A DNA stretch of 39,795 bases, from positions 1 through 39,795 of the IMG/VR virus record IMGVR_UViG_3300024333_000010. One strand, given 5' to 3'. The notes below the pieces were generated by a model, which was not told the DNA's origin, did not search any database, and saw nothing but the letters and a program-made list of their open reading frames with translations. Both the position numbers and the translations under genes were made by a program. Every line of letters starts with the position of its first letter. The stretch's first letter is position 1. Source of the stretch: a virus. Below, in pieces: positions 20,097-39,795 of this stretch.

Positions 20097-20713
20097 TATT
20101 CTCTACCATAATAATAACTAAATGGTTTTCCCGTCCTTTTTTCGTATTTATCCTTTGCTTGTCTAATTTGATCCATTATACGTCTTTTCCTTTCTGGATC
20201 TTTTTCATATTTTTTTGCTTTTATCAGAGTTTTTATATTAGTAGCCAACCTAATCTCTGCTCTATCATCTTGATTTAATTTGGAATTAATACTAAATTCT
20301 TTTTTTATACGTTGTGGATCATATTTCAACTTAAAAACATTAACAATACCTATAGTTTTTGGTTTTTCGTCCAATTGCCTTTCAATATACTTATTTCTAG
20401 CTTGTGCTATTTCTTGCCTAAGTATTTCCTTAGCACCAACAAAATCATCATTTATAAATTTATCAAACGCTTCTTTGATATTTTCAATGTTCATATTTCT
20501 CTTCTTAATTTGGATTATTTGAAAGTTGTCCTTTTTGTTCCCAAAATAATTTTTTATTCTATAGCTTGAAATATTAAGCTTTTTTTCAAGTTGTGATATG
20601 AAATTAATTTTGGCTTTTTTTTCTGAATCAGCTTGAGTATATAAAGTTATGGTTTCACCATACCAATTAAAATCTCCTTTATATTTAGATTCTAGTAGAT
20701 GTCTCTGCTTCAT
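20096..20713 (-). CDS. Composite protein carrying a gp67-like head-core module
   Basis: 205 residues in three parts. Residues 1-73 start MKQRHLLE (an LxE end like other capsid-targeting-like peptides here) and contain GDFNWYGETITLYTQADSEK, a segment I associate with uncharacterised T4-like phage proteins. Residues 74-106 are identical to the first 33 residues of the 45-aa gp67-like peptide at 36473-36610. Residues 107-205 are basic and helical (RKRRIMDQIRQAKDKYEKRT). The module begins at an internal Met with GAAGAG upstream, so a shorter 132-residue product from that start is possible. It probably belongs to the head interior although it lies in the tail operon (inference). Confidence 0.65.
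   Translation of the reverse strand: MKQRHLLESKYKGDFNWYGETITLYTQADSEKKAKINFISQLEKKLNISSYRIKNYFGNKKDNFQIIQIKKRNMNIENIKEAFDKFINDDFVGAKEILRQEIAQARNKYIERQLDEKPKTIGIVNVFKLKYDPQRIKKEFSINSKLNQDDRAEIRLATNIKTLIKAKKYEKDPERKRRIMDQIRQAKDKYEKRTGKPFSYYYGRE
20396..20494 (-). repeat. 99-bp near-identical duplicate of the gp67-like module (copy A)
   Basis: This stretch matches 36512-36610 over 99 bp with four differences by my count, and all four are synonymous, so 33 residues are identical. That points to a duplication held under protein-level selection or kept alike by gene conversion. Confidence 0.9.
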
Positions 20714-21203
20714 ATTTTTCCATCATATTACCAGCTTTAGCTTTAATACGTTCTAAATAATTTTTAACTGTCTCATTTTTACTAGATAATATACAAACAA
20801 AGAATATACACAAATACACCAAACCAATAAGTATAGCTCTTTTAATTTCCATATTACTTAAAATAACAATAGCTTCTATAATATTAGATAAAATTATACA
20901 TATAATTGGTAAATTATTCATTACAAAACCAACCATAGTAGCAAATTCAATGGATTCGTCTGTTTTGGATAAAATCTCATCCAATTGTCTTGATGTGATG
21001 CCAAACATTTCTTGAAGAACTTTAGATAAAGTTTCCTCATCACTACTTTTTTTAATTTCCGTCCAATGTCTTAAGGTTCTACTCTTAAATACATTATAAC
21101 CAATATCTTTTAGCGATTGTAGTACATCTTTTACGTACTCTTTGCCACTACTATAGAATTTTTTAATATATTTTTTTTCTATTAAATATTCTTCAAATCG
21201 CAT
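20685..21203 (-). CDS. Two-helix membrane protein with capsid-targeting-like N-terminus
   Basis: 172 residues starting MRFEEYLIE, which ends in an LIE site like other members of the shared N-terminal family. Residues about 93-118 (FVMNNLPIICIILSNIIEAI) and 124-141 (ILIGLVYLCIFFVCIL) are two membrane segments. The rest is charged and helical. It overlaps the composite gene by 29 nt. If the first nine residues are removed in the head, this would be a packaged membrane-active protein that could act during genome entry (inference). No family recognised. Confidence 0.65.
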   Translation of the reverse strand: MRFEEYLIEKKYIKKFYSSGKEYVKDVLQSLKDIGYNVFKSRTLRHWTEIKKSSDEETLSKVLQEMFGITSRQLDEILSKTDESIEFATMVGFVMNNLPIICIILSNIIEAIVILSNMEIKRAILIGLVYLCIFFVCILSSKNETVKNYLERIKAKAGNMMEKYEAETSTRI

Positions 21204-25509: not shown

Positions 25510-25585
25510 TGGAGCCACTAGAGGGAATCGAACCCCCGACATATCGCTTACAAGGCGATTGCTCTGCCTGCTGAGCTATAGTGGC
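25510..25585 (-). tRNA. tRNA-Thr(TGT)
   Basis: Full cloverleaf with acceptor GCCACTA/TAGTGGC, anticodon loop CTTGTAA, T-loop TTCGATT and encoded CCA (25512-25510). It reads ACA codons, which are common in this AT-rich genome. Its own promoter lies directly upstream. Confidence 0.95.
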
Positions 25586-25594
25586 CCTTTCTTT

Positions 25595-25623
25595 ATTATA
25601 TCATACCAATTTCCAAAAGACAA
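25595..25623 (-). promoter_or_regulatory. Promoter for tRNA-Thr, extended -10
   Basis: TTGTCT (25623-25618), 17-nt spacer, TGA then TATAAT (25600-25595); the tRNA begins about 10 nt later. An inverted repeat ACCAATTT/AAATTGGT surrounds the -35 and spacer and could be an operator. The element TTTGTTGTCTTT is shared with the promoter at 29476. Confidence 0.75.
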
Positions 25624-25683
25624 CAAATTGGTATTTGTGAGGGAATTTGATCCCATAGCTTCATCCGTCATTTTTTCATAATT

Positions 25684-25760
25684 TGGCAAGCCAGGTAGGA
25701 TTTGAACCTACAACCTATGGTTTTGGAGACCATTGCTCTAGCCGTTGGAGCTACTGACTC
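25684..25760 (-). tRNA. tRNA-Trp(CCA)
   Basis: Cloverleaf with acceptor GAGTCAG/CTGGCTT (first pair G-T), anticodon loop CTCCAAA, T-loop TTCAAAT, discriminator G and encoded CCA. Confidence 0.93.
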
Positions 25761-25763
25761 GTG

Positions 25764-25922
25764 TTATCCTTTTCGTGATATTATTTCTAAACTTTCTGCT
25801 ATACGATATAATTCATACCAGATTTTTTCTATTAAACATTCTTTATTATATTCCAAACCACAAGGCAATTTATCTTCTTTGCCAACATTACAAATATTAT
25901 TACTAAACGGACAATTCTTCAA
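25764..25922 (-). CDS. Small cysteine-containing protein with TTG start
   Basis: 52 residues starting at TTG 25922, with GTGGAG 7 nt upstream inside the preceding gene; there is no ATG in a suitable place. It reads (M)KNCPFSNNICNVGKEDKLPC and continues GLEYNKECLIEKIWYELYRI. The four cysteines in about 30 residues suggest a small metal-binding fold. It overlaps the end of the 66-aa gene in another frame and ends 4 nt before tRNA-Trp. Family unknown. Confidence 0.45.
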   Translation of the reverse strand: MKNCPFSNNICNVGKEDKLPCGLEYNKECLIEKIWYELYRIAESLEIISRKG

Positions 25923-26103
25923 TTTGTTTCTCCACAATGTTTTTTATTTTTTTTATAATTTCATAACAATCATTAAAAAGTTCTTTTCTCTGTTGAAAGG
26001 AAAGATAGACCGGATGCATCCATGATGGATCAGTCATACTACCTTGCAAAGACCTATGTAATCTTTCTTCCAATTCTTCAATATAATACAATAGTTCAAC
26101 CAT
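25903..26103 (-). CDS. Small helical protein of unknown function
   Basis: 66 residues: MVELLYYIEELEERLHRSLQ, then PSWMHPVYLSFQQRKELFND and a lysine-rich helix. AAGG lies about 4 nt before the ATG. It is predicted to be a helical pair or coiled coil. It sits between tRNA-Lys and the small cysteine protein. No family recognised; the good ribosome site and helical composition support a real gene. Confidence 0.55.
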   Translation of the reverse strand: MVELLYYIEELEERLHRSLQGSMTDPSWMHPVYLSFQQRKELFNDCYEIIKKIKNIVEKQIEELSV

Positions 26104-26152
26104 ATAACCTTCTTATGCTTACTTTTCTAATTATTCGATAATATCGAATAGT

Positions 26153-26228
26153 TGGTAGGGCCGAAGGGAATTGAACCCATAGCTTACTGATTAAAAGTCA
26201 GTTACTCTACCAATTGAGTTACGGCCCT
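26153..26228 (-). tRNA. tRNA-Lys(TTT)
   Basis: Acceptor AGGGCCG/CGGCCCT, anticodon loop CTTTTAA, discriminator A and encoded CCA. One T-T mismatch is present in the T stem. The 5' end overlaps the stop codon of the helicase gene by two bases. Confidence 0.93.
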
Positions 26229-27543
26229 ATCGTTCTTTTATATTTCTTTTATCTTCACTTTCTTTGGCATCTTCTATCCACAAATCTAATTCAGTTGAAT
26301 CATACATTTTTAAACTTCTAGAATCGTGGTAAAATTTGTCTACATTACCAACTCTACCACCCAGTCTATTTTTTACAATTTTATAATATATCTCATTTTC
26401 ATATACCGAAGAATCTTCGTCATTACCCAATAGTATTACACAATCACTTGTTGCTGGTATTGCAGATGATTCTTGCAATGCATATAATGTTATATCATTC
26501 ATATTTTTTTGTTTAGCTGATTGTGTATTGACTTGACTAAGTGTAACTACAGGTAACTTAAATTCAAAACTTAGACCTCTCATTTCCTCGGCTATCTTTT
26601 TACCTCTACTATACATTGTACCATCTAGAATTTTGGCTGATGGTTTCATAAGCTGTAAATAATCAACCATAATAATAGATGGCTGTATCTGTCTTATCGT
26701 TAGTTCCCTAAGATATATTCTAAACTCTTGAACACTAATTGTACCAGCAGGAAATTGTTTAATAAACAAAGTTCCTAAACCCTGAGTATCTTTTATCTCT
26801 TTAAGTTTTTTGATTAAATGTGTTGTTACTTCTTTTATTGTATATATTCTGTTTATATCCTTGTTAGCAAACAAAGCATCAAATCTTTGAGCAAAAGCAT
26901 CTTCACTCATTTCAAGGGTCAATAAAACAACATTATGACCATTCAACACTTGTCTTGCGGCCATATTACATAATAATTGAGATTTTCCGCCATGAATAGC
27001 CGCACCAAATGTACTAAGTGTATATGGCGGAAACCCGCCGGCCAAATACTCATCTAGTTGGGTAAAATAAGTAGGTATTCTGACATGTGAACCAGATAAT
27101 ATCCGCTTTAGTCTCTCTCCTAAAGTATCAAAATAGTTTAAACCAATATCAATTCTAAGGTCTTTACATAAGGCCGATTCAACAATATCTCTAATTGTTG
27201 TTATATTCTCACCAGAATTTATAATATCAACACTGTCAAGAATAGCTTGTTTTATAGCCTGATTTTTTAAATGTTTGTTTGTTTCATCTAGAAAATAATC
27301 ATAATGTTTAACAAAGTCGAAATCAATAGAGTTTATATCATCCAGTAAACTATTATTTATGTTTGATTCTGGTGGAATATTGTGATATTTGTTATAGTGT
27401 TCATTAATTTGTTCAACAGTAGCGCCAATATCTCTGTTGTCAAAATACTCTTTCTTAAATGTTGATATTATAGTAACCAGATAGTTCTGGTCTTGCAACA
27501 TAAATTTAAGAATGAGTTTTTCTAGATAATCTTGTGCTATCAT
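26227..27543 (-). CDS. 41: Replicative DNA helicase, gp41/DnaB-like
   Basis: 438 residues (T4 gp41 is 475). The N-terminal helical domain (LEKLILKFMLQDQNYLVTII) precedes a RecA-like core with Walker A FGAAIHGGKSQLL near residue 185, LLTLEMSEDAFAQRFDAL, Walker B IIMVDYLQLM near 285 and PVVTLSQVN near 325, all typical of the DnaB family. It unwinds DNA at the fork together with the primase. The ATG lies only 5 nt after the CCA of tRNA-Arg, with no Shine-Dalgarno, and the stop overlaps tRNA-Lys, so tRNA processing may define its mRNA ends. Confidence 0.93.
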   Translation of the reverse strand: MIAQDYLEKLILKFMLQDQNYLVTIISTFKKEYFDNRDIGATVEQINEHYNKYHNIPPESNINNSLLDDINSIDFDFVKHYDYFLDETNKHLKNQAIKQAILDSVDIINSGENITTIRDIVESALCKDLRIDIGLNYFDTLGERLKRILSGSHVRIPTYFTQLDEYLAGGFPPYTLSTFGAAIHGGKSQLLCNMAARQVLNGHNVVLLTLEMSEDAFAQRFDALFANKDINRIYTIKEVTTHLIKKLKEIKDTQGLGTLFIKQFPAGTISVQEFRIYLRELTIRQIQPSIIMVDYLQLMKPSAKILDGTMYSRGKKIAEEMRGLSFEFKLPVVTLSQVNTQSAKQKNMNDITLYALQESSAIPATSDCVILLGNDEDSSVYENEIYYKIVKNRLGGRVGNVDKFYHDSRSLKMYDSTELDLWIEDAKESEDKRNIKER

Positions 27544-27548
27544 TTTAT

Positions 27549-27625
<77 letters not shown>

Positions 27626-27637
27626 ATCTATATTTCG

Positions 27638-27859
27638 TTATGATAACGAATTTAAATGGTATGGCAATGATAGTAATTCTACTATATTTTCATTGGAATA
27701 ATGTGTTTTGAAAAAATCACAAATTTTCGAGAAAATTTCAAGATTTTTCTCAACATAAATATTCATATCAAACATATCCAAAAAAACTTCTCTAGCTTCA
27801 GCAAGAAGACCTAAAGCCTTTTTATGTTGCCTTAACAATTCTATCATATTATCATTCAT
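27638..27859 (-). CDS. Small helical protein of unknown function
   Basis: 73 residues: MNDNMIELLRQHKKALGLLA, EAREVFLDMFDMN and a further helix ending LLSLPYHLNSLS. It lies between the atypical tRNA-Leu and tRNA-Arg with only 12-17 nt on either side. The AAAGAAATGAAAT leader is a weak ribosome site, and a second in-frame Met at residue 5 is also possible. No family recognised. Confidence 0.55.
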   Translation of the reverse strand: MNDNMIELLRQHKKALGLLAEAREVFLDMFDMNIYVEKNLEIFSKICDFFKTHYSNENIVELLSLPYHLNSLS

Positions 27860-27875
27860 ATTTCATTTCTTTTTT

Positions 27876-27952
27876 TGGTGGGGGTAGTAGGATTTGAACC
27901 TACACTATACGGATTTTAAGTCCGTTGACTCTACCTGTTGGTCTATACTTCC
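27876..27952 (-). tRNA. Atypical tRNA-Leu(TAA), class I shape with acceptor mismatches
   Basis: Anticodon loop CTTAAAA between ACGGA/TCCGT stems, T-arm GTAGG-TTCAAAT-CCTAC, discriminator A and CCA are clear. The variable loop is only about 5 nt, unlike the long arm of normal Leu tRNAs, and acceptor GGAAGTA against TACCCCC has two adjacent A-C mismatches. The 5' half overlaps the end of a coding frame. It may be degenerate or need editing. Confidence 0.7.
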
Positions 27953-28111
27953 ATTAAATTCTATATTTGATAGACAAACCAAGAGATTGTCACCAAATCT
28001 AACATCCGGCTTAGTTTTGTATTCATGGAATACATATTTCAATTCTTCATGTGTCAAATTATCAAGTTTAGCCCTAACCTTGATTACCGATTCATCATTT
28101 AAATTTATCAT
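27905..28111 (-). CDS. Small protein whose 3' end overlaps a tRNA
   Basis: 68 residues: MINLNDESVIKVRAKLDNLT, HEELKYVFHEYKTKPDVRFG and a tail (STDLKSV) encoded inside the atypical tRNA-Leu. ATG 28111 is chosen because a longer frame would run into tRNA-Leu(TAG); however, this ATG sits inside a possible -10 box, so the true start may differ. Composition is protein-like. No family recognised. Confidence 0.5.
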   Translation of the reverse strand: MINLNDESVIKVRAKLDNLTHEELKYVFHEYKTKPDVRFGDNLLVCLSNIEFNGSIDQQVESTDLKSV

Positions 28112-28135
28112 ATCATATTTCTCAAAATTAGTCAA
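28107..28135 (-). promoter_or_regulatory. Possible promoter after tRNA-Leu(TAG)
   Basis: TTGACT (28135-28130), 17-nt spacer ending in TGA, then TATGAT (28112-28107). It fits the early promoter pattern, but its -10 overlaps the start codon of the following small gene. Confidence 0.45.
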
Positions 28136-28137
28136 CT

Positions 28138-28225
28138 TGGTGCCTGAAGAGAGATTTGAACTCCCAAGCCCACTATTGGGCAATAGGTTCTAAACCTATC
28201 GTGTATGCCATTCCACCATTCAGGC
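28138..28225 (-). tRNA. tRNA-Leu(TAG)
   Basis: 85 nt plus CCA, with acceptor GCCTGAA/TTCAGGC, anticodon loop TTTAGAA and a normal long variable arm (GCCCAATAGTGGGC). It reads CTA and other CTN codons. It is clearly class II, unlike the neighbouring Leu gene. Confidence 0.95.
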
Positions 28226-28242
28226 AGATTAAATCGTTTTTT

Positions 28243-28318
28243 TGGTGGGCCCGGCAGGGTTTGAACCTGCAACCAGTCGATTATGAGCCGAATGCTCTAC
28301 CACTTGAGCTACAGGCCC
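28243..28318 (-). tRNA. tRNA-Met(CAT), elongator-type
   Basis: Acceptor GGGCCTG/CGGGCCC fully paired including position 1-72, so it is not an initiator; anticodon loop CTCATAA, T-arm GCAGG-TTCAAAC-CCTGC, encoded CCA. A CAT anticodon can also belong to tRNA-Ile modified to read ATA, which is frequent here; sequence alone does not separate these. Confidence 0.9.
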
Positions 28319-28328
28319 CTTTTCCATT

Positions 28329-28405
28329 TGGTCAGACCAGCAGGACTTGAACCGGCAACCTCTGGTTCCCAAAACCAGTGCTCTACCAAATTGAGCTATG
28401 ATCTG
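28329..28405 (-). tRNA. tRNA-Pro(TGG)
   Basis: Acceptor CAGATCA/TGGTCTG, anticodon loop TTTGGGA, discriminator A and encoded CCA. The T stem GCCGG/CCTGC has one C-T mismatch. First tRNA of the group in transcription order. Confidence 0.9.
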
Positions 28406-29973: not shown

Positions 29974-31390
29974 AGTTTCTCTTATATCCCCTCTTGATAT
30001 GAAAATAGAATCAAGTGATAAAGATTACATGAATGACATCAAATATCGCTTTACCTTTCCTGTTCCTGGTTATCAATATATGCCGGCGTTTAAAAAGGGT
30101 AGATGGTCTGGTAAAACAAGTTTATTTACTAAAGATACACTACCATACGGCTTGTTATTTGATTTTGTTAAAATACATAAAAAGTTTTATGAAAATGTAA
30201 TATTGGAAGTATCTGATGAAGTCAAAAATCTATTTATGGGTAAAAAATTAGAACCCATATATGATTTAAAACATTATCCTTATGATTATCAAGATGACTG
30301 TATCGTAACAGCACTTAAACATAAAAGATGTATTCTTCATGTAAGTGTTGCTAGTGGTAAATCTCTTATTGTTACTATGTTTATTAAAACATTACTAGAA
30401 AATTTCAATAAACAATATCTTGTTATAGTTCCTACAGTAAATTTAGTTGAACAATTATATAGTGATATGATAGATTATGGTATAGATAGTAATATAATAG
30501 GTAGAGTTCATGCCAATATACAGGAACCAGACAAAAGTATAGTTATATCAACCTGGCAATCTTTATCTAAAAGACATAAATGGCTACCAAGATTTCATGG
30601 TGTTGTAGTTGATGAATGCCATACTACTGGTGGTTCATTGGAAATAAGAAAAATACTATCAAAAGCCATAAATGCTGATTATAGATTAGGAGTTACTGGT
30701 ACTCTTCCTGGCGAAAAACTTAATTTATTTAATATAAAAAGCTATCTTGGGCCAGTAGTGAAAAAATATTCTACTGCACAACTTAGTAAAGCTGGTTATG
30801 TAAGTAAATGCAACGTGTTAGCACATGTGATTAAACATAATATAAACTATCAGGGTGAATATTTTGATGTAAGATGTAAAGTAGTTAATAATATAGCAAG
30901 AATGGGGTATATCAAAGATATTATAAACAATATTCAAGACAATGTACTTATCTTAGTTAATCTAGTAGAAAAAGAAGGTAAGATATTAGAAGAATATCTT
31001 ATAAAAAATTTACCAGATAGAGAAGTTGTTTTTATCTATGGTGAAACAGATGTAAAAACCAGGGAACAACATAGATTAGATTTTGACAATAGGAAAAACA
31101 AAGTAGTTATAGCTACATATCCCATTCTCAAAATAGGAGTTAATATCCCCTCACTTAAATATATTATATTTGGTAGTCCTCTCAAATCTAAAATTAGTGT
31201 GCTCCAATCAGTAGGTAGAACACTGAGAAAATATATGACTAAAACAGAAGGATCATATATTATAGACCTCATAGATGATGTGACATATCTCAGAAATCAT
31301 GGGGATATTAGACTAGAATACTATGAAAGGGAAAAATTTTCAATAAAAAAATTGACTGGTTTATTGTCTTTGGGAATTAATATGATGTAA
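29951..31390 (+). CDS. uvsW: Recombination DNA-RNA helicase UvsW
   Basis: 479 residues (T4 UvsW about 500). The N-terminal region (PGYQYMPAFKKGRWSGKTSL) is the small UvsW-specific domain that binds nucleic acid. The SF2 helicase motifs follow: Walker A VSVASGKSL near 133, motif Ia VIVPTVNLVEQL, DECH motif II near 212, TGTL motif III, and QSVGRTLRKY motif VI near 418. UvsW unwinds branched recombination intermediates and R-loops and helps the switch of replication mode. It overlaps uvsY by 23 nt with no clear SD, suggesting coupled translation. Confidence 0.93.
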   Translation: MIENTLVKVSLISPLDMKIESSDKDYMNDIKYRFTFPVPGYQYMPAFKKGRWSGKTSLFTKDTLPYGLLFDFVKIHKKFYENVILEVSDEVKNLFMGKKLEPIYDLKHYPYDYQDDCIVTALKHKRCILHVSVASGKSLIVTMFIKTLLENFNKQYLVIVPTVNLVEQLYSDMIDYGIDSNIIGRVHANIQEPDKSIVISTWQSLSKRHKWLPRFHGVVVDECHTTGGSLEIRKILSKAINADYRLGVTGTLPGEKLNLFNIKSYLGPVVKKYSTAQLSKAGYVSKCNVLAHVIKHNINYQGEYFDVRCKVVNNIARMGYIKDIINNIQDNVLILVNLVEKEGKILEEYLIKNLPDREVVFIYGETDVKTREQHRLDFDNRKNKVVIATYPILKIGVNIPSLKYIIFGSPLKSKISVLQSVGRTLRKYMTKTEGSYIIDLIDDVTYLRNHGDIRLEYYEREKFSIKKLTGLLSLGINMM

Positions 31391-31643
31391 TAAAAGAAAT
31401 GTGATTATGATAAAATGAAAAGGAAAAAAACAATTTATTGCTTTTCCAAATATATTAAGCTTAGTTATTGTATATTCCTAAATATAGCTATTTGCGCCAT
31501 GAAAAATGCTTGAATACATTTAAGCCCGAACAAGAATAATTTAATATATGAAAGATATATATTGTGATTTGTGTGATAGTTTTATAATGCTCAGGAAACA
31601 TAAACTAGAGTGTAAAAGTTGTTTTGGGAATTAATATTATAAG
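31391..31643. other. Intergenic region between convergent uvsW and endonuclease genes
   Basis: About 250 bp of AT-rich DNA. It contains a weak GGAAAA/TTTTCC stem-loop at about 31421-31446 that could end uvsW transcripts, and one small CxxC-containing frame on the plus strand. No promoter or strong terminator is evident. Confidence 0.4.
31548..31634 (+). CDS. Possible 28-aa CxxC peptide
   Basis: MKDIYCDLCDSFIMLRKHKL followed by ECKSCFGN, with a CxxC pair at each end, the form of a minimal zinc knuckle. No clear ribosome site precedes it. It may be a remnant of zinc-finger sequence from endonuclease insertion, or a real mini-protein. Length gives little statistical support. Confidence 0.25.
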   Translation: MKDIYCDLCDSFIMLRKHKLECKSCFGN

Positions 31644-33281
31644 TTAATAATTAGTTAGTTTGAACTTAAAACTACCACAATCCCATATTCTATTATAACC
31701 ATTTTTTTGCATGATTTCCAATTCTGTGCCATCACCTTCTAATTTGTTTCGTCTAAATTTGAATCTATGGTGGCGTTTTTTATTCATGGTGTACCAATAA
31801 TTTGGTTTTGTTATTGATATTAATTTAAATCCCAATTTTTTATATAAATTACCAGTGTTCCATCTTCTATCAGCATAAGATATTATCTCTTTCCAATTAT
31901 AATGTTTTTTAAAATACGATATTAATTTAGATGCAATGCCTATTACCGGAACACTAGAGCAGAAACGATTAAGCTCCCATATACCATCTTTATTTTTTTG
32001 TCCCTTTGCTATAGATAATTTGGAAAATGTCATAACAGACACAAGTTTATCATTATAAAATGCGCCAAGTTTTATCGCCGATTTTGAGTACCCCTGAATA
32101 TGATACTTTTCACAAAATTCCGATGATGTTTTACTATCTATAATTTCTATCTTACATTGTCTGGCATATATTTTACCATCTACAATATTTAAAATATGTT
32201 TTATTCTGTTCTTTACAATATCTTCTTTGTATGTCCATTCATCTTCAAAAATTTGAATAAGTCTTATTCCAACAGAATTACATTTTTCAAATTTTCTTGA
32301 ATGATAATATCTATCCTTTCCGAGTGCTTCACTATGCCAATATAATCCATTATATTCTATTGCTATATTATGTGACGGTATAAATATATCCAATTCTTCT
32401 GGGTGTATTAAACTTCTATTATTTGTTTCTATGTTTATACCCAAAGATGTTATGAAATTGGCTATTTTACGTTCTTCATAAAAATCTTTATTATCTCCAC
32501 ATGTTTTGCACCTTCTGCCAGACAAAATATGAGCAAGAGTTACAATAGATTCGTGGTTTTTATCACATATTAGTTTTATTACATCATTTCTTTCTATAAT
32601 ATCTTTATTATATTCTATTATATACGATTTTCCCAATATATCTATTACATTTTCTTTACTAATTTTTATTTTAGCGTTGCCTGCACATTGTGAACAGCCA
32701 TGTCCTTTATTAGCAAAATTATCATATGTTATATTACCAATATGTTCATTGGGACATTCATAATAGATTGGTGTTCTAGTATTTTTAATATTTTCTGATA
32801 ATAGCTTAAAACCGCGTTTCTCAAATTCAAGTTTAGCTTTGGTGTAATCTATTCTATTACATAAATTACATCTTTTACCTTTTTTAAAATTTGAATATTT
32901 GATTTTATATATGTGATTATTAGGACATTTAAATTCAACAATTCTTTTATCATGAACCCGAATAACTTCATATCCTACATTCTTGAAGATTGAGAGGTCT
33001 AAGTTTTGTTTTTTTCCAATTTTTGATTCGGATATTTTTTTACCTATTACAGCATGGTCTATTTTAGACCATCTTTTTTTCTGTGCTATACTATTTTTAT
33101 CTCTATTAATTTTGTTTATAATTTTAGATTTACATGACAAACATCTTTTTTCACTTTTCATATAAATATTATACTGCCTTAATACACCACAACCGCAAAT
33201 ATTACAAATAAACCATACTTTTTTGTGATTAGTAGGTCTTAATTCCGATACCGGCCCAAAATCTTCTCTTCTTACTATCAT
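31644..33281 (-). CDS. EDxHD-type homing endonuclease with repeated zinc fingers
   Basis: 545 residues. Residues 1-265 hold about four treble-clef-like zinc units with paired CxxC or C-x-N-H patterns (CNICGCG with CLSC, CPNNHIYKI with CNLC, CPNEH with CSQC, CDKNHES with CKTC). Residues 268-350 are a Vsr/PD-(D/E)XK-like nuclease: EERKIANFITSLGI, PEELDIFIPSHNIAIEYNGL, YWHSE and IRLIQIFEDEW, with Asp, Glu and His in the EDxHD order. The C-terminal 190 residues are a further DNA-contacting domain (ISYADRRWNTGNLYKKLGFK). It is free-standing, beside the capsid gene, and has its own promoter; the nearby conserved gene 23 or uvsW is the likely target. Confidence 0.82.
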   Translation of the reverse strand: MIVRREDFGPVSELRPTNHKKVWFICNICGCGVLRQYNIYMKSEKRCLSCKSKIINKINRDKNSIAQKKRWSKIDHAVIGKKISESKIGKKQNLDLSIFKNVGYEVIRVHDKRIVEFKCPNNHIYKIKYSNFKKGKRCNLCNRIDYTKAKLEFEKRGFKLLSENIKNTRTPIYYECPNEHIGNITYDNFANKGHGCSQCAGNAKIKISKENVIDILGKSYIIEYNKDIIERNDVIKLICDKNHESIVTLAHILSGRRCKTCGDNKDFYEERKIANFITSLGINIETNNRSLIHPEELDIFIPSHNIAIEYNGLYWHSEALGKDRYYHSRKFEKCNSVGIRLIQIFEDEWTYKEDIVKNRIKHILNIVDGKIYARQCKIEIIDSKTSSEFCEKYHIQGYSKSAIKLGAFYNDKLVSVMTFSKLSIAKGQKNKDGIWELNRFCSSVPVIGIASKLISYFKKHYNWKEIISYADRRWNTGNLYKKLGFKLISITKPNYWYTMNKKRHHRFKFRRNKLEGDGTELEIMQKNGYNRIWDCGSFKFKLTNY

Positions 33282-33288
33282 ATGATAT

Positions 33289-33318
33289 ATTATATCATTT
33301 TTTTGATTAGAATGTCAA
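33289..33318 (-). promoter_or_regulatory. Consensus sigma-70 promoter for the homing endonuclease
   Basis: TTGACA (33318-33313), 18-nt spacer, TGA, TATAAT (33294-33289). The ATG at 33281 lies where transcription would start, so the message may be leaderless. Confidence 0.75.
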
Positions 33319-33320
33319 TT

Positions 33321-33357
33321 AAAAAACCCATTTGGTAAACTTACCAAATGGGTTTTT
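33321..33357 (-). terminator. Terminator after the capsid gene
   Basis: Arms AAAAACCCATTTGGTAA (33322-33338) and complement (33341-33357) with a tight loop; both strands continue into T-rich sequence, so it can stop the head operon. It lies just outside the endonuclease promoter. Confidence 0.9.
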
Positions 33358-33378
33358 GTGATTATATTAAGTTATATG

Positions 33379-34593
33379 TTAGTTTGGCATATTTTGACAG
33401 ATAATATATCTGTAGAAAAGTGCACTGCCAAATAGATGATCAACTAAACCGTATCTACTCATAAGACCAACAGTTGGGTTAAACGAATCTTCAAATGTTG
33501 CTTTACTTGACATTAGTTGAATGTATGGTAAATAAATAACACCTGCATCATATTCACTGGCACCCTTAAATCCTATAACAACATCTGTACTATTTGCAAA
33601 TGTATCTCTATATACAGCCATTCTACCATCCAAACTACCTAGTTTGGCTACTCCAGTTAGTGCAGTATTTACATCATTAGCTACTGGATGAATAGTAAAG
33701 GCACTTAAACATTCCAGAGCAGCACATGGTGTTGGATGACATACAACCCAGTTACCAGAACCACGTCTAGTTGTTACGGCAATTTCATTGGCTTTTCTTA
33801 CGATTTTATTATACAAGCATCTATATTTTTCTGTTTCCCATTGACCGCTGGCTGACGAATAATCAAAAGCAGATGATGTTGAAACAGAAGCAGTAGCAGA
33901 TGTTCTAATCGTGGTTACGATTTGGCGATCAATTTCGGCCGTAATTTCGTAACTCAGAATATCCATCATTTCGTCTTCCATATTTAGTCCATGCATGGCC
34001 TGCAAGTCTTGAGCAACTTCTAATGACCATCTGGCTCTTAGTTTACGAGTCTCGGCAGTTACTTGTGTTTTCTCTAAAGTCATTGTAACTTCTTTGATAT
34101 GAGTTCCTGCGCCAATACCAATACCAAAATCATTACCCACACCAGAACCGGCTTTTGATCCCAAAGCTTCGGCGGCCGATACACTGGCTGATTGAGTAAA
34201 GGTATAATCCAATGTAGTATATCCTAGCTCTTGCCCATGTGCTACACCGCTATAAGTTTGTCCGGCTCTAAAACGTAAACCAAATGCCAACCCTACTGGA
34301 CCGGTCATTGGTTGTACGCCCACTAAGTCATGAGCGATAAGTTCTGGGAATGTGCGTCTTACCATGGGAATAGCAATTTTATAGAAATCGCCATTGCTTG
34401 AATAAGAACCAGCACGGTTAAAAGTGCCTTCAATATGAGAACCGCTTTCGTCTACACGTCCACCAAATAAGTGATTATATTCATTTTCAATCATTAAAGC
34501 AGTCGAAGCTAGAACTCTATTATTGGTAATTTTTTTGCCAGTATCTAGAACTTCTTGCCACTTTTCTACTAGCATTTTAGCTTTATTGTTCAT
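33379..34593 (-). CDS. 23: Major capsid protein gp23
   Basis: 404 residues from ATG 34593 (MNNKAKMLVEKW), with TGGAGGAGA just upstream. T4 gp23 has 521 residues, so this is a compact version. The conserved MVRRTFPELIAHDLVGVQPM followed by TGPVGLAFGLRFR and EAEIDRQ-like stretch (YEITAEIDRQIVTTIRTSA) are typical of gp23, with a HK97 fold. A prohead protease site may be present in ASTALMIE|NEYNHL, in the position of the T4 propeptide end. It is the last gene of the head operon and is followed by a strong terminator. Confidence 0.95.
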   Translation of the reverse strand: MNNKAKMLVEKWQEVLDTGKKITNNRVLASTALMIENEYNHLFGGRVDESGSHIEGTFNRAGSYSSNGDFYKIAIPMVRRTFPELIAHDLVGVQPMTGPVGLAFGLRFRAGQTYSGVAHGQELGYTTLDYTFTQSASVSAAEALGSKAGSGVGNDFGIGIGAGTHIKEVTMTLEKTQVTAETRKLRARWSLEVAQDLQAMHGLNMEDEMMDILSYEITAEIDRQIVTTIRTSATASVSTSSAFDYSSASGQWETEKYRCLYNKIVRKANEIAVTTRRGSGNWVVCHPTPCAALECLSAFTIHPVANDVNTALTGVAKLGSLDGRMAVYRDTFANSTDVVIGFKGASEYDAGVIYLPYIQLMSSKATFEDSFNPTVGLMSRYGLVDHLFGSALFYRYIICQNMPN

Positions 34594-34605
34594 TATCTCC
34601 TCCAA

Positions 34606-35445
34606 TTAAAACTTGTTTTCTGTTAGAACTTTTACAACGCTCCTTTTGTACTCTTCAAAAGGGTTGCTGGTTTTCTTTACTGTTCTGTCTTTAACTTCAC
34701 TGTGTCCCTCGGACACTTCCTTTTCCTCTAAGGCCACGTTGCAATCGTCACATTCATTCATCGAACATGCACCCCTTACTACATAAGTTTTGCCACAATC
34801 TGGACAACTACAATCTGTAGTTTCGTCATTCTGTTCTTTTAGATAATGTGAAGTAATTACACTATATTTTCGATCAATCTCATCTTGACTGACAATATTC
34901 TCAAGTAATCTCATAACATTTTTGCGTTGAAGTTCTGTTAATCCATCACATTTTTTTCTTTTATATAATTCGGCAGCAAAATCCCTAGCATCTTTCTTGA
35001 TTTCTAGATTTTCATTTACCATATCATTAATTTCACCACGTAATCTAGTAATCTCATCCCTGGCTTCTTCTAGAAGTTCCCTAACTTCCTCATCTAAAAT
35101 ACCCTCGTCAATACCAATACGACTTTTAATTTCCTGAATTACATCATGATATAATTCGCCCACTCTGGCATATTCCCTAATATTATCGGGGATTTCCATC
35201 ATACCTTCTTCTTCTAAAACTGTATCAACAAAATCTGAGAATTTTGACATTACTTCATTTTTGTAATCTTCAAATTTTTCCTCATAAAGCGCCACTAAGT
35301 GCTCTTTTTCTGTTTCTATAGCTTCATTTAGTTTTTCCTGAACTTTAATATCAATAATGTCATTTAATTTTTGTTCAACATCTTTTTGTTGTTCTTCAGT
35401 TAGAAGACTGGTTTTTAACATTTCTAAAATTTCTTTAATTTCCAT
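34606..35445 (-). CDS. 22: Prohead scaffold gp22 with zinc-ribbon insertion
   Basis: 279 residues from ATG 35445 (MEIKEILEML), with GGGGGAAA upstream. It is highly charged and helical, with a long coiled-coil part (residues 20-190) as in T4 gp22 (269 residues), the scaffold around which gp23 assembles. Several (L/I)xE sites (for example VLEEE, LLEEA, LLENIV) would let gp21 digest it. Unusually, residues about 215-240 hold CSCPDCGKTYVVRGACSMNE and CDDC, a zinc ribbon not known to me in T4 gp22. It lies between the core protein and gp23, as in T4. Confidence 0.85.
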   Translation of the reverse strand: MEIKEILEMLKTSLLTEEQQKDVEQKLNDIIDIKVQEKLNEAIETEKEHLVALYEEKFEDYKNEVMSKFSDFVDTVLEEEGMMEIPDNIREYARVGELYHDVIQEIKSRIGIDEGILDEEVRELLEEARDEITRLRGEINDMVNENLEIKKDARDFAAELYKRKKCDGLTELQRKNVMRLLENIVSQDEIDRKYSVITSHYLKEQNDETTDCSCPDCGKTYVVRGACSMNECDDCNVALEEKEVSEGHSEVKDRTVKKTSNPFEEYKRSVVKVLTENKF

Positions 35446-35458
35446 TATATTTCCCCCA

Positions 35459-35848
35459 TTAGACATATTTCTTTTTACGGGTTCTACCCATTTTTACCAT
35501 TCTTTTATGTTTTTTCTGCCAAGTTCTATATGCGGCAGTTCTTCTATATCTTTTGCCAGCCATTTTAAGTTTACTACGTTTCATTCTGTAGGCTTTACGA
35601 GATTTCACATGTGCCCTACGAGAAACTCTCATTATTCTACGTTCTGAAAGTTCATCTTCGGCCTCTTCATCTTCAAGATCAAGAGCACCTAATGATTCTA
35701 GAATATCACCTAATATTTCGGCTTGTTCATCATCAAGTGAATCAGCATCCAATGATGATATCAAGTCTATCATCATTTCTAGAACACCATCATTATCTTC
35801 TTCTTGCTCTGTCATCAAATATGAATCAATTCTATTTTTTATATCCAT
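35459..35848 (-). CDS. Bipolar prohead core protein, gp68-like
   Basis: 129 residues with sharp charge separation: residues 12-67 are acidic (LDADSLDDEQAEILGDIL, LDLEDEEAEDELSE) and residues 68-129 extremely basic (RRIMRVSRRAHVKSRKAYRM, KRYRRTAAYR). A DELSE|RR junction is a gp21-type LxE site exactly at the change of charge. The basic part could bind DNA in the mature head, as T4 core proteins do. It lies between the gp21 and gp22 genes, the location of head-core genes in T4-like phages. Assignment to gp68 rests on position and composition only. Confidence 0.65.
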   Translation of the reverse strand: MDIKNRIDSYLMTEQEEDNDGVLEMMIDLISSLDADSLDDEQAEILGDILESLGALDLEDEEAEDELSERRIMRVSRRAHVKSRKAYRMKRSKLKMAGKRYRRTAAYRTWQKKHKRMVKMGRTRKKKYV

Positions 35849-35879
35849 ATTATATCCTCATCATTAATATTTAGAAAAA

Positions 35880-36473
35880 TTATTTAAATTTTTCCAACAA
35901 TTTAATTATTTTCTTATAATAGTTATTTCTTGTTTTTGATAATTCTACCAAAGTATCTTCAACATTATATCCTTCATAGATACCCTTTACCCAAGCACCA
36001 CTACAAGAAGGATTGCCGACTATATCCCAAGTAATAAGCTTATATGATTCATCCTTCACATAGCCGTCTTCTGATACTTCGCCCAAACCACGACTAGAAA
36101 TACCAATCCTTTTGGATTCTTTGAGTAACGCGGCAGCTATTGCACCATTGGGTGTATCGGTAAGAATTTTGGCCTTGCCATACAAATCATTACCGCGCCA
36201 TTCCAGAGCAAGTGTTCTAATAGCAACTTTTTCCATACTAGAGTCTGCTGATGTAGGATGGTCAAGTTGTCCCCAAAGTGGAACACCTGTTTTAAAAAAT
36301 TCTTCATTAATTCGTTTAAATTCTCTATCTAAAGTATCTTTTTTATATACTCTACCATTGGCATTTTTTTGTTCCGCCGAGCTAAAAATACCAACTATAT
36401 ACATGTCACCACTACCTTTAGATTCGTTTAACTCAATATCATATGAAGTTTCTGTAATAAGTTTTAGAGACAT
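35880..36473 (-). CDS. 21: Prohead core protease gp21
   Basis: 197 residues (T4 gp21 is 212). NANGRVYKKDTLDREFKRIN is the conserved start of the family; the serine protease residues are His72 in GQLDHPTSADSS and the Ser in GISSRGLG near residue 126. T4 gp21 matures the head by cutting after (L/I)xE; its own N-terminus has LITE at residues 5-8, a likely self-cleavage site. The ATG overlaps the gp67-like gene stop as TAATG. Neighbours gp22 and gp23 confirm the context. Confidence 0.93.
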   Translation of the reverse strand: MSLKLITETSYDIELNESKGSGDMYIVGIFSSAEQKNANGRVYKKDTLDREFKRINEEFFKTGVPLWGQLDHPTSADSSMEKVAIRTLALEWRGNDLYGKAKILTDTPNGAIAAALLKESKRIGISSRGLGEVSEDGYVKDESYKLITWDIVGNPSCSGAWVKGIYEGYNVEDTLVELSKTRNNYYKKIIKLLEKFK

Positions 36474-36610
36474 TATTTCTTATAACCTAACTTTCTTTCT
36501 ATATAATCATCTCTAGCTTGTGCTATTTCTTGTCTAAGTATTTCCTTAGCACCAACAAAATCATCATTTATAAATTTATCAAATGCCTCTTTGATATTTT
36601 CTATGTTCAT
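36473..36610 (-). CDS. Small prohead core peptide, gp67-like
   Basis: 45 residues: MNIENIKEAFDKFINDDFVG and AKEILRQEIAQARDDYIERK, then LGYKK. An AAGGAGAAATAAATTT leader precedes the ATG. The helical IKEAF-ND-AKEIL pattern resembles the beginning of T4 gp67 and of small core peptides in related phages, and the location directly before gp21 is where gene 67/68 lies in T4. Its first 33 residues are repeated exactly inside the 205-residue protein at 20096-20713. Confidence 0.7.
   Translation of the reverse strand: MNIENIKEAFDKFINDDFVGAKEILRQEIAQARDDYIERKLGYKK
36512..36610 (-). repeat. 99-bp near-identical duplicate of the gp67-like module (copy B)
   Basis: Partner of 20396-20494; four synonymous differences in 99 bp. 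The encoded 33 residues are the same in both. Confidence 0.9.
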
Positions 36611-36614
36611 AAAT

Positions 36615-36902
36615 TTATTTCTCCTTTACTATTTCCGCAAATTTATTATAATCCACCTTTTTAAAAATACTCTCTCTAATTTTATTAAGCTTATAGAGCA
36701 TTTTTCCAATATCATTATATTCTTTTTCCAAATTGTAAGTTTTTACTAGAGTTTGTGACATATTTCCCGGCAAATGACCTAGAATAAGCTCTATTTCTGA
36801 TAAATGGTTCACTGCTTTAGTCAAACCGTCAAAGAATTTTTCGCCCAACTTCATAGTATAATTATACTCTTCATTAAGATATTTTTGTAATCTTCTGTTC
36901 AC
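36615..36902 (-). CDS. Small head-operon protein with capsid-targeting-like N-terminus
   Basis: 95 residues starting at GTG 36902, with AAGGAG 10 nt upstream; the leader matches the one before the next gene, which supports this start. The N-terminus MNRRLQKYLNE ends in an LNE site. The rest is helical (LGEKFFDGLTKAVNHLSEIE, LYKLNKIRESIFKKVDYNKF). It is the first gene after the head late promoter and is probably an internal head protein (inference). No family recognised. Confidence 0.6.
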   Translation of the reverse strand: MNRRLQKYLNEEYNYTMKLGEKFFDGLTKAVNHLSEIELILGHLPGNMSQTLVKTYNLEKEYNDIGKMLYKLNKIRESIFKKVDYNKFAEIVKEK

Positions 36903-36925
36903 AAATTTATTTCTCCTTCTTTATA

Positions 36926-36933
36926 TATTTATA
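36926..36933 (-). promoter_or_regulatory. T4-type late promoter for the head operon
   Basis: Perfect TATAAATA, 24 nt before the GTG start of the first head-operon gene. It would drive gp67-like, gp21, core, gp22 and gp23. Confidence 0.8.
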
Positions 36934-36937
36934 ATTT

Positions 36938-38119
36938 CTACCATTTCTTTTTACTATAGAACGCAACATCAAGTCCAGCTTCTATATCTCTAGGGTAATA
37001 TTTTTCCAATAATGAAATGATACTTTTGGAAAGGGGTTCTCTAAAATATTTAGTAGACCAACTATCATCTATTTCTTGTAATTGTTTGTATATTCCCACA
37101 TATTCCGACAATGAATCAGTCTGGATATTTGTTAATTTGCCATTCTTATACCATCCATACCCATATAATATAAGTTGCTTCTTAAGTTCTCCTACTATAT
37201 TAGTACCAAATTGATTATAAAGTTTACTTCTAAGTGCCAGAGCATGAATAACATCTGCTGACCATACATAAAAATCTTTATTTTTTAAATCTACTATAAA
37301 CCTTAAACAACCATCTTCTTCACCCTTTGCTAATAGACCAAGTTCCAAATATGATGGATTTTCATAAACTTCATAATGTTTACCCCGATATACTAAACTA
37401 TCAATATATTTTTCATTAACAAATTTATCTGGATAATTTTCCTTGAGTATCAAATCTATATCTTTTACATTATACTCAACACCACCTTTGTTCCATTTAA
37501 CAACAACAAAAGCATTAGTGTTATCATTGTGAAATGACTTATGAATATCATTTAATAATCTAATTTCTTTTACTTTACCAACCATACCAGTTTCTTTATG
37601 TACTACTTTAGCTCCTTTTTGTATTTCTACTGGTTTAAATTTATCATATACAACTTTTATTTTGGATGGGTCAAATACTATTCCTTGTCTATATGATTCA
37701 CCATAAAAACCATATCTACCACGACATACAACTATACCATCATATCCTTCTTCTTTAAGTTTTTTTAAGTCAAGTTGACGCATAGTATATATATCACCTG
37801 TATGTATTACATATGGTTTATTAAGTTTTACCTCAACTTCTAGTGGTGTACCATAGTTTGACGCTATTTTTTTACTATCGGTAAAATATATACCCCGGCC
37901 TAGAAAACCTTCACGGTCTTCTGGATCACGTTTGGTAAATTTATTCTGTATTGTAGGAACGAGTGGATTTATTTCACTTTTAGGTAATCTAAATCCTTCT
38001 TTCTTTATATAATAACTAGAATTTGTACCATGATAACATCTAATGGTTATGGGTTTGCTATGTTCAACTTCATCAAATGTTATTGTAGTTTTTTCTTGTA
38101 GATATTGTAGTAATTTCAT
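36938..38119 (-). CDS. ADP-ribosyltransferase-like protein with capsid-targeting-like N-terminus
   Basis: 393 residues in three parts. Residues 1-9 are MKLLQYLQE, the shared peptide. Residues 25-160 read like an ADP-ribosyltransferase fold: RCYHGTNSSYY (His30), GRGIYFTDSKKIASNYG at 75-90, EGYDGIVV and SYRQGIVFDPSKIKVV. The usual Glu of the last motif appears as Gln145, so activity is uncertain. Residues about 255-393 form a C-terminal module shared with the metallopeptidase (RFIVDLKNKDFYVWSADVIH). T4 Alt is a packaged ADP-ribosyltransferase that modifies host RNA polymerase and carries a similar targeting peptide; an equivalent role is plausible. Confidence 0.72.
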   Translation of the reverse strand: MKLLQYLQEKTTITFDEVEHSKPITIRCYHGTNSSYYIKKEGFRLPKSEINPLVPTIQNKFTKRDPEDREGFLGRGIYFTDSKKIASNYGTPLEVEVKLNKPYVIHTGDIYTMRQLDLKKLKEEGYDGIVVCRGRYGFYGESYRQGIVFDPSKIKVVYDKFKPVEIQKGAKVVHKETGMVGKVKEIRLLNDIHKSFHNDNTNAFVVVKWNKGGVEYNVKDIDLILKENYPDKFVNEKYIDSLVYRGKHYEVYENPSYLELGLLAKGEEDGCLRFIVDLKNKDFYVWSADVIHALALRSKLYNQFGTNIVGELKKQLILYGYGWYKNGKLTNIQTDSLSEYVGIYKQLQEIDDSWSTKYFREPLSKSIISLLEKYYPRDIEAGLDVAFYSKKKW

Positions 38120-38175
38120 ATATTATATTTGTTTTTTGTAAAATCTGATAGTGTCCTGGTAAACTATCTATTTGA

Positions 38176-39423
38176 TCATGATAAATCTTTAGTTAAATAA
38201 TATGTTTGTATAAATTTCTTTTCTTCTGTAATAATGTTCAAATAACGCAATTCTTTCATAATTAAATCCATCAGGGACATCTCAAACCATTTATTTGTCC
38301 ATTTTTGGTCGGATTTAATCCAACCTCCCAAATATCCAAATTCTATATTCTCCAAATCTAATGTTCCATAAGCTTCTTGTATTTTGTTATTGATTACACG
38401 TCCACTACCACCATAGTAATATTTCCAGAATGTTTTTGAATTCATATCCGATGTTTTGAGTAATTTTTTCTTATATAGAAGACTCATTATTTCTTCATGA
38501 AGAATATTAGCATTCCAAACATAAAATTTCTTGTTGTTAAAATCTATAATAAACCTTACTGCGTCCCCTAGACTTCTCATTTCTTTTGGTGTAGGATTTA
38601 CAAATATTTCAGTATATGCCGTATTAACTTCGCGTTTAATTGACATACTATCAACATAGTCTTCTTTAAGAACATTATACCTTTCAAAATAACCCTTTAG
38701 TTTTTTATATGTATTAAGTAAATTTTTATAAAATGCATCAAATAATTTTTTTAATCTATCTATAGTTGTTTTATCTATATGATGTTTTAAATGTTTAAAT
38801 CCCAAAATATTAGCAGCTATAGTTATATATTCTAATACACTAGTGTTATAATTACTTAAAAAAAATCTATTAATTTCCATAATATATTCATTTTCATTAT
38901 CAAATTTATTAACTATATCTTTTATTTTGTTGGTTATATCAACAATATTCAAATCCGAAATAAGGAATCCCATTGCCACATAAAAAGCATTTGGGCTTCT
39001 TTCCCAATTCTGCAGAAAGTATTCCATACCCAATAATATATTATTGCTAAATTTTTTATATTTTTCAAAATCAAAATTGGAATTTGTTGGTTTTAATTGT
39101 CTTACATGAGCAATTTCATGGAACAAAACAGATAAAAACTCTAACCTATCTTTGTAAGTTATTTCTGTTTGTATATTTGGCAATTCAATAGTAATTGTTA
39201 TGGGTGATAGTGATACTTTACCAGTTATGTATTTTTTATCATTACCAACATATACTTCTATTGAGACATCAAAAATATCTTCAAATGAATTAAGTAAACG
39301 TCCTAAATAATTTCCAGAAATAATATCCTTAAATGGTATATTATGTTGTTGCATAAAATTATCAATAATATAAAATAATTTATCTTCAAATGATTCTGTT
39401 AAATAGTTTAGTAGTCTACTCAT
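38176..39423 (-). CDS. HExxH zinc metallopeptidase with capsid-targeting-like N-terminus
   Basis: 415 residues. MSRLLNYLTE is the shared N-terminal peptide. VLFHEIAHVRQL supplies His102, Glu103 and His106 of a gluzincin-type site, and Glu141 in NWERSPNAFYVAM is a good third ligand at the expected distance. Residues about 272-415 form the module also found in the ADP-ribosyltransferase-like protein (RFIIDFNNKKFYVWNANILH). No signal peptide is present. The ATG overlaps the LRR-like gene stop (ATGA). It may be packaged and act on host proteins after ejection (inference); a role in head maturation is an alternative. Confidence 0.72.
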   Translation of the reverse strand: MSRLLNYLTESFEDKLFYIIDNFMQQHNIPFKDIISGNYLGRLLNSFEDIFDVSIEVYVGNDKKYITGKVSLSPITITIELPNIQTEITYKDRLEFLSVLFHEIAHVRQLKPTNSNFDFEKYKKFSNNILLGMEYFLQNWERSPNAFYVAMGFLISDLNIVDITNKIKDIVNKFDNENEYIMEINRFFLSNYNTSVLEYITIAANILGFKHLKHHIDKTTIDRLKKLFDAFYKNLLNTYKKLKGYFERYNVLKEDYVDSMSIKREVNTAYTEIFVNPTPKEMRSLGDAVRFIIDFNNKKFYVWNANILHEEIMSLLYKKKLLKTSDMNSKTFWKYYYGGSGRVINNKIQEAYGTLDLENIEFGYLGGWIKSDQKWTNKWFEMSLMDLIMKELRYLNIITEEKKFIQTYYLTKDLS

Positions 39424-39795
39424 AGTATTACTATCTTGTACTTATTCTCGTATTTTTTAAATGCTTCGTATTGGTTTTTAGTAATATACAAATTGCCACC
39501 AATACTAACATCATCTGGTAGTTCTTCTATTGGTGTATTAGATAAATTACAATTACCCTTTACTATTAAATTCTTACCTATTTTTCTTATTTTACTATAA
39601 GATAAATATAAATTATCACCAAATGTCATATTATCTGGTAGTTCTTCTATTGGTGTATCAGATAAATCACAATTACCCTTTACTATTAAATTCTTACCTA
39701 TTTTTCTTATTTTACTAAAATGTAAATCCAAATCGCCACTAATATTAACATTATCTAGTAGTTCTTCTATTGGTGTATAAGATAAATAACAATTA
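39420..39795 (-). CDS. 20-residue-repeat (LRR-like) protein, 5' part outside the window
   Basis: The last 125 residues are visible; the frame is open to the edge (NCYLSYTPIEELLDNVNISG and on), so the start lies beyond. Six solenoid repeats alternate GDLDLHFSKIRKIGKNLIV and KGNCDLSDTPIEELPDNMTF, with the same cap (QYEAFKKYENKYKIVIL) as the paralogue at 5460-6221. It is coupled to the metallopeptidase gene. I expect, but cannot see, the same N-terminal peptide. Function unknown; repeat solenoids usually bind other proteins. Confidence 0.75.
   Translation of the reverse strand, partial: NCYLSYTPIEELLDNVNISGDLDLHFSKIRKIGKNLIVKGNCDLSDTPIEELPDNMTFGDNLYLSYSKIRKIGKNLIVKGNCNLSNTPIEELPDDVSIGGNLYITKNQYEAFKKYENKYKIVIL

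Follow-up and report, generated by a model that had tools for sequence, protein, structure and literature searches.

Why do six proteins encoded on one viral DNA fragment, most of them different in the rest of their sequence, begin with nearly the same short peptide? The question is raised by IMG/VR virus record IMGVR_UViG_3300024333_000010, a 39,795-base stretch with 31% G+C that was analyzed at its full length and is called the window below. Its source is a divergent T4-like myovirus. An earlier note, made from the sequence alone, had likened the peptide to the capsid-targeting sequence (CTS) that directs internal proteins into the T4 prohead. Based on the analysis described here, we put a probability of about 0.87 on the peptide being a T4-type CTS in a lineage-specific form, carried by diverse proteins that are predicted to be ejected with the DNA.

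All six peptides, of 9 to 11 residues, are present at the starts given for them, 586, 6221, 21203, 36902 (GTG), 38119 and 39423, each on the minus strand (Table 1). The earlier note had called for a pattern search against random expectation, and the result was in its favor. A narrow pattern derived from its list alone, M-x(1-4)-[LF]-x-x-Y-L-x-E, is found in 6 of the 43 window genes, while shuffled N-termini gave a mean of 0.05 and a maximum of 2 over 2000 trials. A strict pattern, M-x(1-4)-[LFIY]-xx-[YF][LI]-x-E, which was widened after relatives had been seen and with the T4 peptide in mind, matches 7 of the 43 genes; 0.06 would be expected from internal pseudo-starts of the same proteins (P = 3e-13). 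Peptides that fit the strict pattern are referred to as tags in the following. The seventh match, MVELLYYIEE at 26103, is probably due to chance; it starts a 66-residue open reading frame (ORF) inside the tRNA cluster, where the short ORFs (26103, 28292) are doubtful. The start MKQRHLLE at 20713, listed before as a weaker match, has to be set apart as a different motif, having neither the hydrophobic residue at position -6 nor the aromatic residue at -3.

Counted from the glutamate as position 0, the fixed positions of the tag are F/L/I/Y at -6, Y/F at -3, L/I at -2 and E at 0. In the peptide of T4 IPII and IPIII, MKTYQEFIAE (read from AF158101), these are residues 4, 7, 8 and 10. Mutants of T4 IPIII have shown the N-terminal part of the peptide to be the main determinant of targeting, with residues 4 and 7 foremost, and residues 8 and 10 to be required for processing; with Asp at residue 10, processing is blocked and targeting is kept (PMC9026906). 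The comparison with the T4 CTS can thus be carried down to the register, with the fixed positions being those defined by mutation in T4. As far as sequence can tell, the tags have every testable property of the T4 CTS. Run on T4 itself, the strict pattern picked 3 of 252 called genes, ipII, ipIII and 61.1. A loose pattern added alt, gp24 and the homing endonuclease gene mobB, and missed by the pattern was IpI (MKTFKEFTS). Alt and gp24 are gp21 substrates (PMC9026906). Since the T4 matches are mostly known gp21 substrates or internal proteins, the pattern recovers known head cargo with few false matches. T4 gene 61.1 (AF158101, 18966-19130) is an uncharacterised 54-residue ORF whose start, MKTFKEFIKE, makes a good CTS; it adjoins the anti-toxin genes 61.2 and 61.4. 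Two genes of the related record G006 (L084, 2953-3776) start MKFQQYLTD and MKFEQYLLD, with Asp in place of Glu.

Further signs come from features that lie outside the search pattern. Eight records with 96 strictly tagged proteins served for the counts of the residue after Glu, residue 2, promoters and core orthologues. The residue following the glutamate is A, G or S in 50 of the 96 tags (52%), compared to 215 of 1427 untagged starts (15%, P = 7.5e-16) and 55 of 443 internal pattern matches (P = 5e-16). Because this position is absent from the pattern, the small-residue bias is independent support for cleavage. K or R occupies residue 2 in 61 of the 96 tagged proteins and in 303 of 1427 untagged ones. 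Among 144 orthologues of 41 T4 core proteins there is one strict tag, found on the G030 portal, which is a head protein, whereas the 1381 other genes have 95 (P = 0.001). The earlier note would have taken a tag equally common on gp41, UvsW and other non-virion proteins as refuting its reading; gp41, UvsW, polymerase and tail orthologues have no strict tags. In the AlphaFold model of a tagged protein of the RG family, described below, residues 1-14 have a predicted local distance difference test score (pLDDT) below 50 with a whole-protein mean of 88, and such modeled disorder is as expected of a detachable leader.

The tag is not confined to the window. Blind scans of 2.9 million viral contigs were made with a ribosome site plus the back-translated peptide, using no protein body. 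A family of 63-residue helix-turn-helix proteins starting MKLLDYLKET, which made up most of the first scan, was treated as a false positive class. The remaining matches of the first scan and most inspected matches of the second were on T4-like contigs with several tagged genes, and single loci have 12 of 33, 7 of 24, 6 of 20, 6 of 16 and 6 of 11 genes tagged. By record, strict tags are found on 9 of 95 genes in G001, 9 of 42 in G003, 6 of 80 in G006, 13 of 310 in G031, 9 of 209 in G032, 5 of 204 in G033 and 5 of 197 in Campylobacter phage CP220, with 2 each in KVP40 and Aeh1. The 381-kb jumbo contig G030 (L212-L231) has the most, with 38 of 540 genes tagged and 1.1 expected (P = 5e-45). Some of its tagged genes share upstream DNA together with the tag, as if the start region had been copied as a cassette. 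Over all sequence analyzed, 262 distinct strictly tagged proteins were collected from 86 records or loci. In the gp23 tree, a single supported clade holds the window, G003, G006, G031 and G032; G030 branches outside this clade, and G033 groups with CP220. This scatter indicates that the tag is spread over several deep branches, T4 included. Of the six tag-bearing records longer than 100 kb, five (G030-G033 among them) encode the S77 protease, as do G003 and G006; the sixth, G054, has a single 59-residue match. In a set of 39 contig records, 28 have a tagged gene in the locus and 11 only a chance match to the pattern; PF03420 was above its cut-off in 12 of the former and in none of the latter (P 0.009), one of the latter having a sub-threshold match at E 2.7e-6. 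At 14179-15325 of G001 (L078), three neighboring genes start MEFN(Y/H), which may be another leader type; one of them is a homologue of a tagged DUF5661 protein of G003.

The 96 tagged proteins fall into 74 sequence clusters. In the window, the bodies of the tagged proteins had been described as unrelated, which is borne out in part only: the two largest, the ADP-ribosyltransferase (ART)-like and the metallopeptidase-like proteins, have a C-terminal domain in common (~37007-37426 and ~38242-38679; E 1e-7 and E 1e-33). This domain stands alone behind a tag in L064 (MKFLNYLQE) and in G006 (MKFLKYLQE). In fusions that place another domain ahead of it, the tag is found at the start of the fusion protein, as should be the case for a targeting peptide and not for part of a fold. 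A search for the domain in bacterial genomes found none. ART-PolyVal is also cargo in G030 (E 2e-16); the window protein matches PF18760 at E 1e-6 with 30.0 bits, under the 31.2 cut-off, its single-sequence fold model (pLDDT 33) is unusable, and a PF18760 search in 13 relatives found none. The metallopeptidase-like protein has no Pfam peptidase match, and for both of these whole proteins no homologues were found in viral contigs or cultured phages. The label 'leucine-rich repeat (LRR)-like' given earlier to the 253-residue protein has to be dropped, as DUF5649 repeats were matched and not LRR models; a partial paralogue of it lies at 39420-39794. Residues 3-76 of the 172-residue protein, whose gene is two genes upstream of the gp19-like tube gene, gave a marginal match to PHROG 2667 'internal head protein' that is not significant (E 0.07). 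Family searches with the 95-residue helical protein gave nothing at E 0.01. A homologue of the PcfJ-like protein is encoded in G006 (E 2e-20). Upstream of it (L084, ~7590-7640) the frame reads MRF-TGA-QYLIEA, with an in-frame TGA at codon 4; the gene would be broken, the codon reassigned or the sequence in error. Elsewhere the cargo includes amidoligases (three paralogues in G001; L123), zeta-like P-loop kinases (G006, G031, G032) and a tRNA nucleotidyltransferase (G031), along with DUF5661 and HExxH proteins (window, G006, others). A PADLOC search of the cargo gave nothing convincing.

The largest tagged family, named RG after its [YW]RG motif, has 16 tagged members in G001, G006, G030 and G031. 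Eight more homologues fall outside the strict pattern, several of them with a leader that is one residue longer (FLLKES, FILNES, YILSEG) or lacks the Glu. The confidently modeled fold of the family matched no PDB entry at E 0.001; it matches proteins of jumbo phages such as Atu_ph07, and the search of BFVD gave phage homologues, in none of which the RG domain has a demonstrated function. Assignment of the family to the ARTs was considered on account of a weak DRAT match on a fragment (E 3e-4) and rejected, being unsupported by PDB sequence or fold searches. In Agrobacterium phage Atu_ph07 (L339, 11783-21806), RG-family genes form an unbroken row of ten, each starting with M(R/K)WxQL(T/N)E or a peptide close to it. 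This leader differs from the tag, yet it ends in Glu after Leu. Counting from the helicase-primase gp70, the ten genes are gp53-gp62 and lie inside coding sequences (CDS) 31-76, among which mass spectrometry has found 29 virion proteins, a figure for the whole block (PMC6102473).

The observations can be combined into the following scheme. Late in infection, the amphipathic N-terminal peptide would hold a tagged protein in the prohead core of gp22 and the gp67-like protein, and targeting would be due to the hydrophobic residue at -6 and the aromatic one at -3. The S77 protease gp21 would cut after [LI]-x-E, usually before a small residue, and free the cargo inside the head; the cargo would then exit with the DNA and could act in the host at once. 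The gp21 homologue reported earlier for the window is indeed encoded there, its alignment with T4 gp21 shows conserved GQLDHP and SSRGLG motifs, and it is presumed to be the processing enzyme of the tags. For the tagged proteins as a class, targeting, cleavage, packaging, ejection and anti-host action are what we infer from their sequences. Several observations do not fit this scheme easily. Pelagibacter phage HTVC008M and cyanophage S-PM2 have the S77 protease, yet zero strict tags. The loci with the nearest gp21 and gp23 relatives (L002-L039), mostly structural blocks, have 2 strict tags in 430 genes. Several tag-rich fragments have no PF03420 match, which incomplete records may explain, and late promoters (TATAAATA) are only weakly enriched before tagged genes (17 of 96 vs 143 of 1427, P 0.024).

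Other readings of the peptide were also weighed. It could target the prohead core and be cut, with most tagged proteins being assembly or scaffold components and not ejected effectors. T4 gp24 and the G030 portal do start with motif-like peptides, and the 95-residue helical protein, like some of the small tagged proteins, might belong to the core. We regard this as unlikely, given that much of the domain-bearing cargo is enzyme-like (ART-PolyVal, zeta-like kinase, amidoligase, tRNA nucleotidyltransferase, HExxH), which is hard to see as scaffold, and that cargo families differ between phages in the manner of the T4 internal proteins, which are injected (PMC12373910). Even less probable is some other N-terminal sorting signal, for a membrane or a replication compartment and unrelated to heads. 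Amphipathic helices at an N-terminus are able to bind membranes, and a hydrophobic segment occurs in one of the tagged proteins, but the fixed Glu, the [LI] at -2, the small-residue bias, the T4 register and the T4 positive controls all point to a cleavage site, and replication and recombination orthologues are without strict tags.

That the similarity reflects duplicated genes or copying of the start region as a cassette (promoter, ribosome site and first codons), with no targeting role, is hardly credible. In G030, and to a smaller degree in G031 and G003, some tagged genes resemble one another in their upstream and tag DNA, and several of the tagged families are paralogues. However, the fraction of identical codons among the window tags is 0.527, compared to 0.514 expected from codon usage; synonymous codons being no more alike than usage predicts, selection appears to act on the peptide and not on the DNA. 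In addition, the peptide is common to all 74 clusters, and the pattern is seen again in T4 and in widely separated branches of the gp23 tree. A T4-type CTS on predicted ejected proteins is the reading we retain.

The features of the window are collected in Table 1. Three tagged genes (36615-36902, 36938-38119, 38176-39423) lie directly upstream of the gp67-like/gp21/gp22/gp23 block on the minus strand. In some 20 related loci, homologues of the 45-residue gp67-like protein are encoded immediately upstream of gp21. The 129-residue protein between gp21 and gp22, for which family searches gave no significant match, is a probable core protein with a related N-terminus. The 205-residue protein that starts MKQRHLLE carries a gp67-like copy in its middle, of which 117 nt are 93% identical to the gene at 36473-36610; judging by this arrangement, fusion to a core protein could be another route into the head. 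The PcfJ-like gene is cut by the window end. Other genes of the window encode the tail proteins gp6, gp25, gp5, gp53, gp18 and gp19 and the replication proteins gp32, gp41 and UvsW, and eight tRNA genes lie at 25510-28405. Directly downstream of gp23, a 545-residue ORF (31644-33281) with zinc-finger-like CxxC pairs is possibly a homing endonuclease. A nucleotide search of window positions 30000-39795 against the phage collection gave no match.

Table 1. Tagged genes and head genes of the window, with the basis of each assignment
Feature	N-terminal peptide (position)	Gene	Strand	Basis
Tagged PcfJ-like protein	MRLLNYLLE (560-586)	2-586	-	PcfJ PF14284, E 1.1e-6, over cut-off
Tagged repeat protein, 253 residues	MKLLSYLTE (6195-6221)	5460-6221	-	DUF5649-type repeats, PF18886 E 6.6e-6
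205-residue protein with copy of gp67-like module	MKQRHLLE	20096-20713	-	Nucleotide identity
Tagged 172-residue protein with hydrophobic segment	MRFEEYLIE (21177-21203)	20685-21203	-	Sequence
gp23 major capsid protein		33379-34593	-	Relatives 53-57% identical; tree
gp22-like scaffolding core protein		34606-35466	-	PF25623 T4_CASP E 2.6e-6, PHROG 237 E 3.9e-6
129-residue protein between gp21 and gp22	MDIKNRIDSYLMTE	35459-35848	-	Related N-terminus
gp21-like prohead protease (S77)		35880-36473	-	PF03420 E 2.8e-21, PHROG 207 E 5.8e-47
gp67-like small prohead core protein, 45 residues		36473-36610	-	Position and homologues upstream of gp21
Tagged helical protein, 95 residues, GTG start	MNRRLQKYLNE (36870-36902)	36615-36902	-	Sequence
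Tagged ADP-ribosyltransferase-like protein, 393 residues	MKLLQYLQE (38093-38119)	36938-38119	-	PF18760 ART-PolyVal
Tagged metallopeptidase-like protein, 415 residues	MSRLLNYLTE (39394-39423)	38176-39423	-	HEIAH at residues 102-106

Only a few of the proteins that enter the host along with the DNA of T4-like phages are known. Should the tag prove to be a head address, the injected host-takeover and counter-defence proteins of uncultured phages could be listed from sequence alone. The tags described here are natural variants of a tag already used for loading foreign proteins into T4 heads. Among the open papers searched, there was no CTS-based survey of injected proteins outside the T-even phages. 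With less assurance than we attach to the CTS itself, we lean toward a broader view in which a head address common to T4 and several deep T4-like and jumbo branches defines large, fast-changing sets of predicted injected proteins, with RG as a new effector family. In T4, Ip1-Ip3 act as specific blockers of GmrSD restriction enzymes (PMC12373910).

The closest known system is the CTS of T4 IPI-IPIII and Alt, in which a peptide of about 10 residues likewise stands at the N-terminus of unrelated proteins, with hydrophobic or aromatic residues at 4 and 7, [LI] at 8 and Glu at 10, and is accompanied by an S77 protease and a core of gp22 and gp67 type. The consensus differs, being MKFxxYLNE or M(R/K)LLxYLxE here and MKTYQEFIAE in T4. 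The tags are also more numerous, with 6 on the 40-kb fragment and 38 on the 381-kb record against 3 strict matches in T4, and the cargo is mostly unrelated to the T4 internal proteins. The mechanism would be a variant of a known one; novelty lies in its scale, in the cargo and in reading the tag as a predictor of injected proteins. The polyvalent proteins of phages and conjugative elements (Iyer et al. 2017, PMC5512222) resemble the cargo in having an ART-PolyVal domain and a metallopeptidase and in their proposed delivery with the DNA. However, they are giant, with 2-15 conflict domains in one multidomain protein, whereas each cargo protein of the window is short and has its own targeting peptide, one recognized domain and at most one shared domain; PcfJ and amidoligase, found as cargo here, are absent from that paper. 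In the giant phages phiKZ, 201phi2-1 and SPN3US, ejection proteins are cut by a distant gp21 homologue and head proteins lose N-terminal propeptides after Glu, the SPN3US sites preferring Ser at P1' (PMC10052503). The SPN3US propeptides are mostly 111-254 residues long, with two short ones of 20 and 24 (PMC10052503), in contrast to the roughly 9-11 residues of the tags described here.

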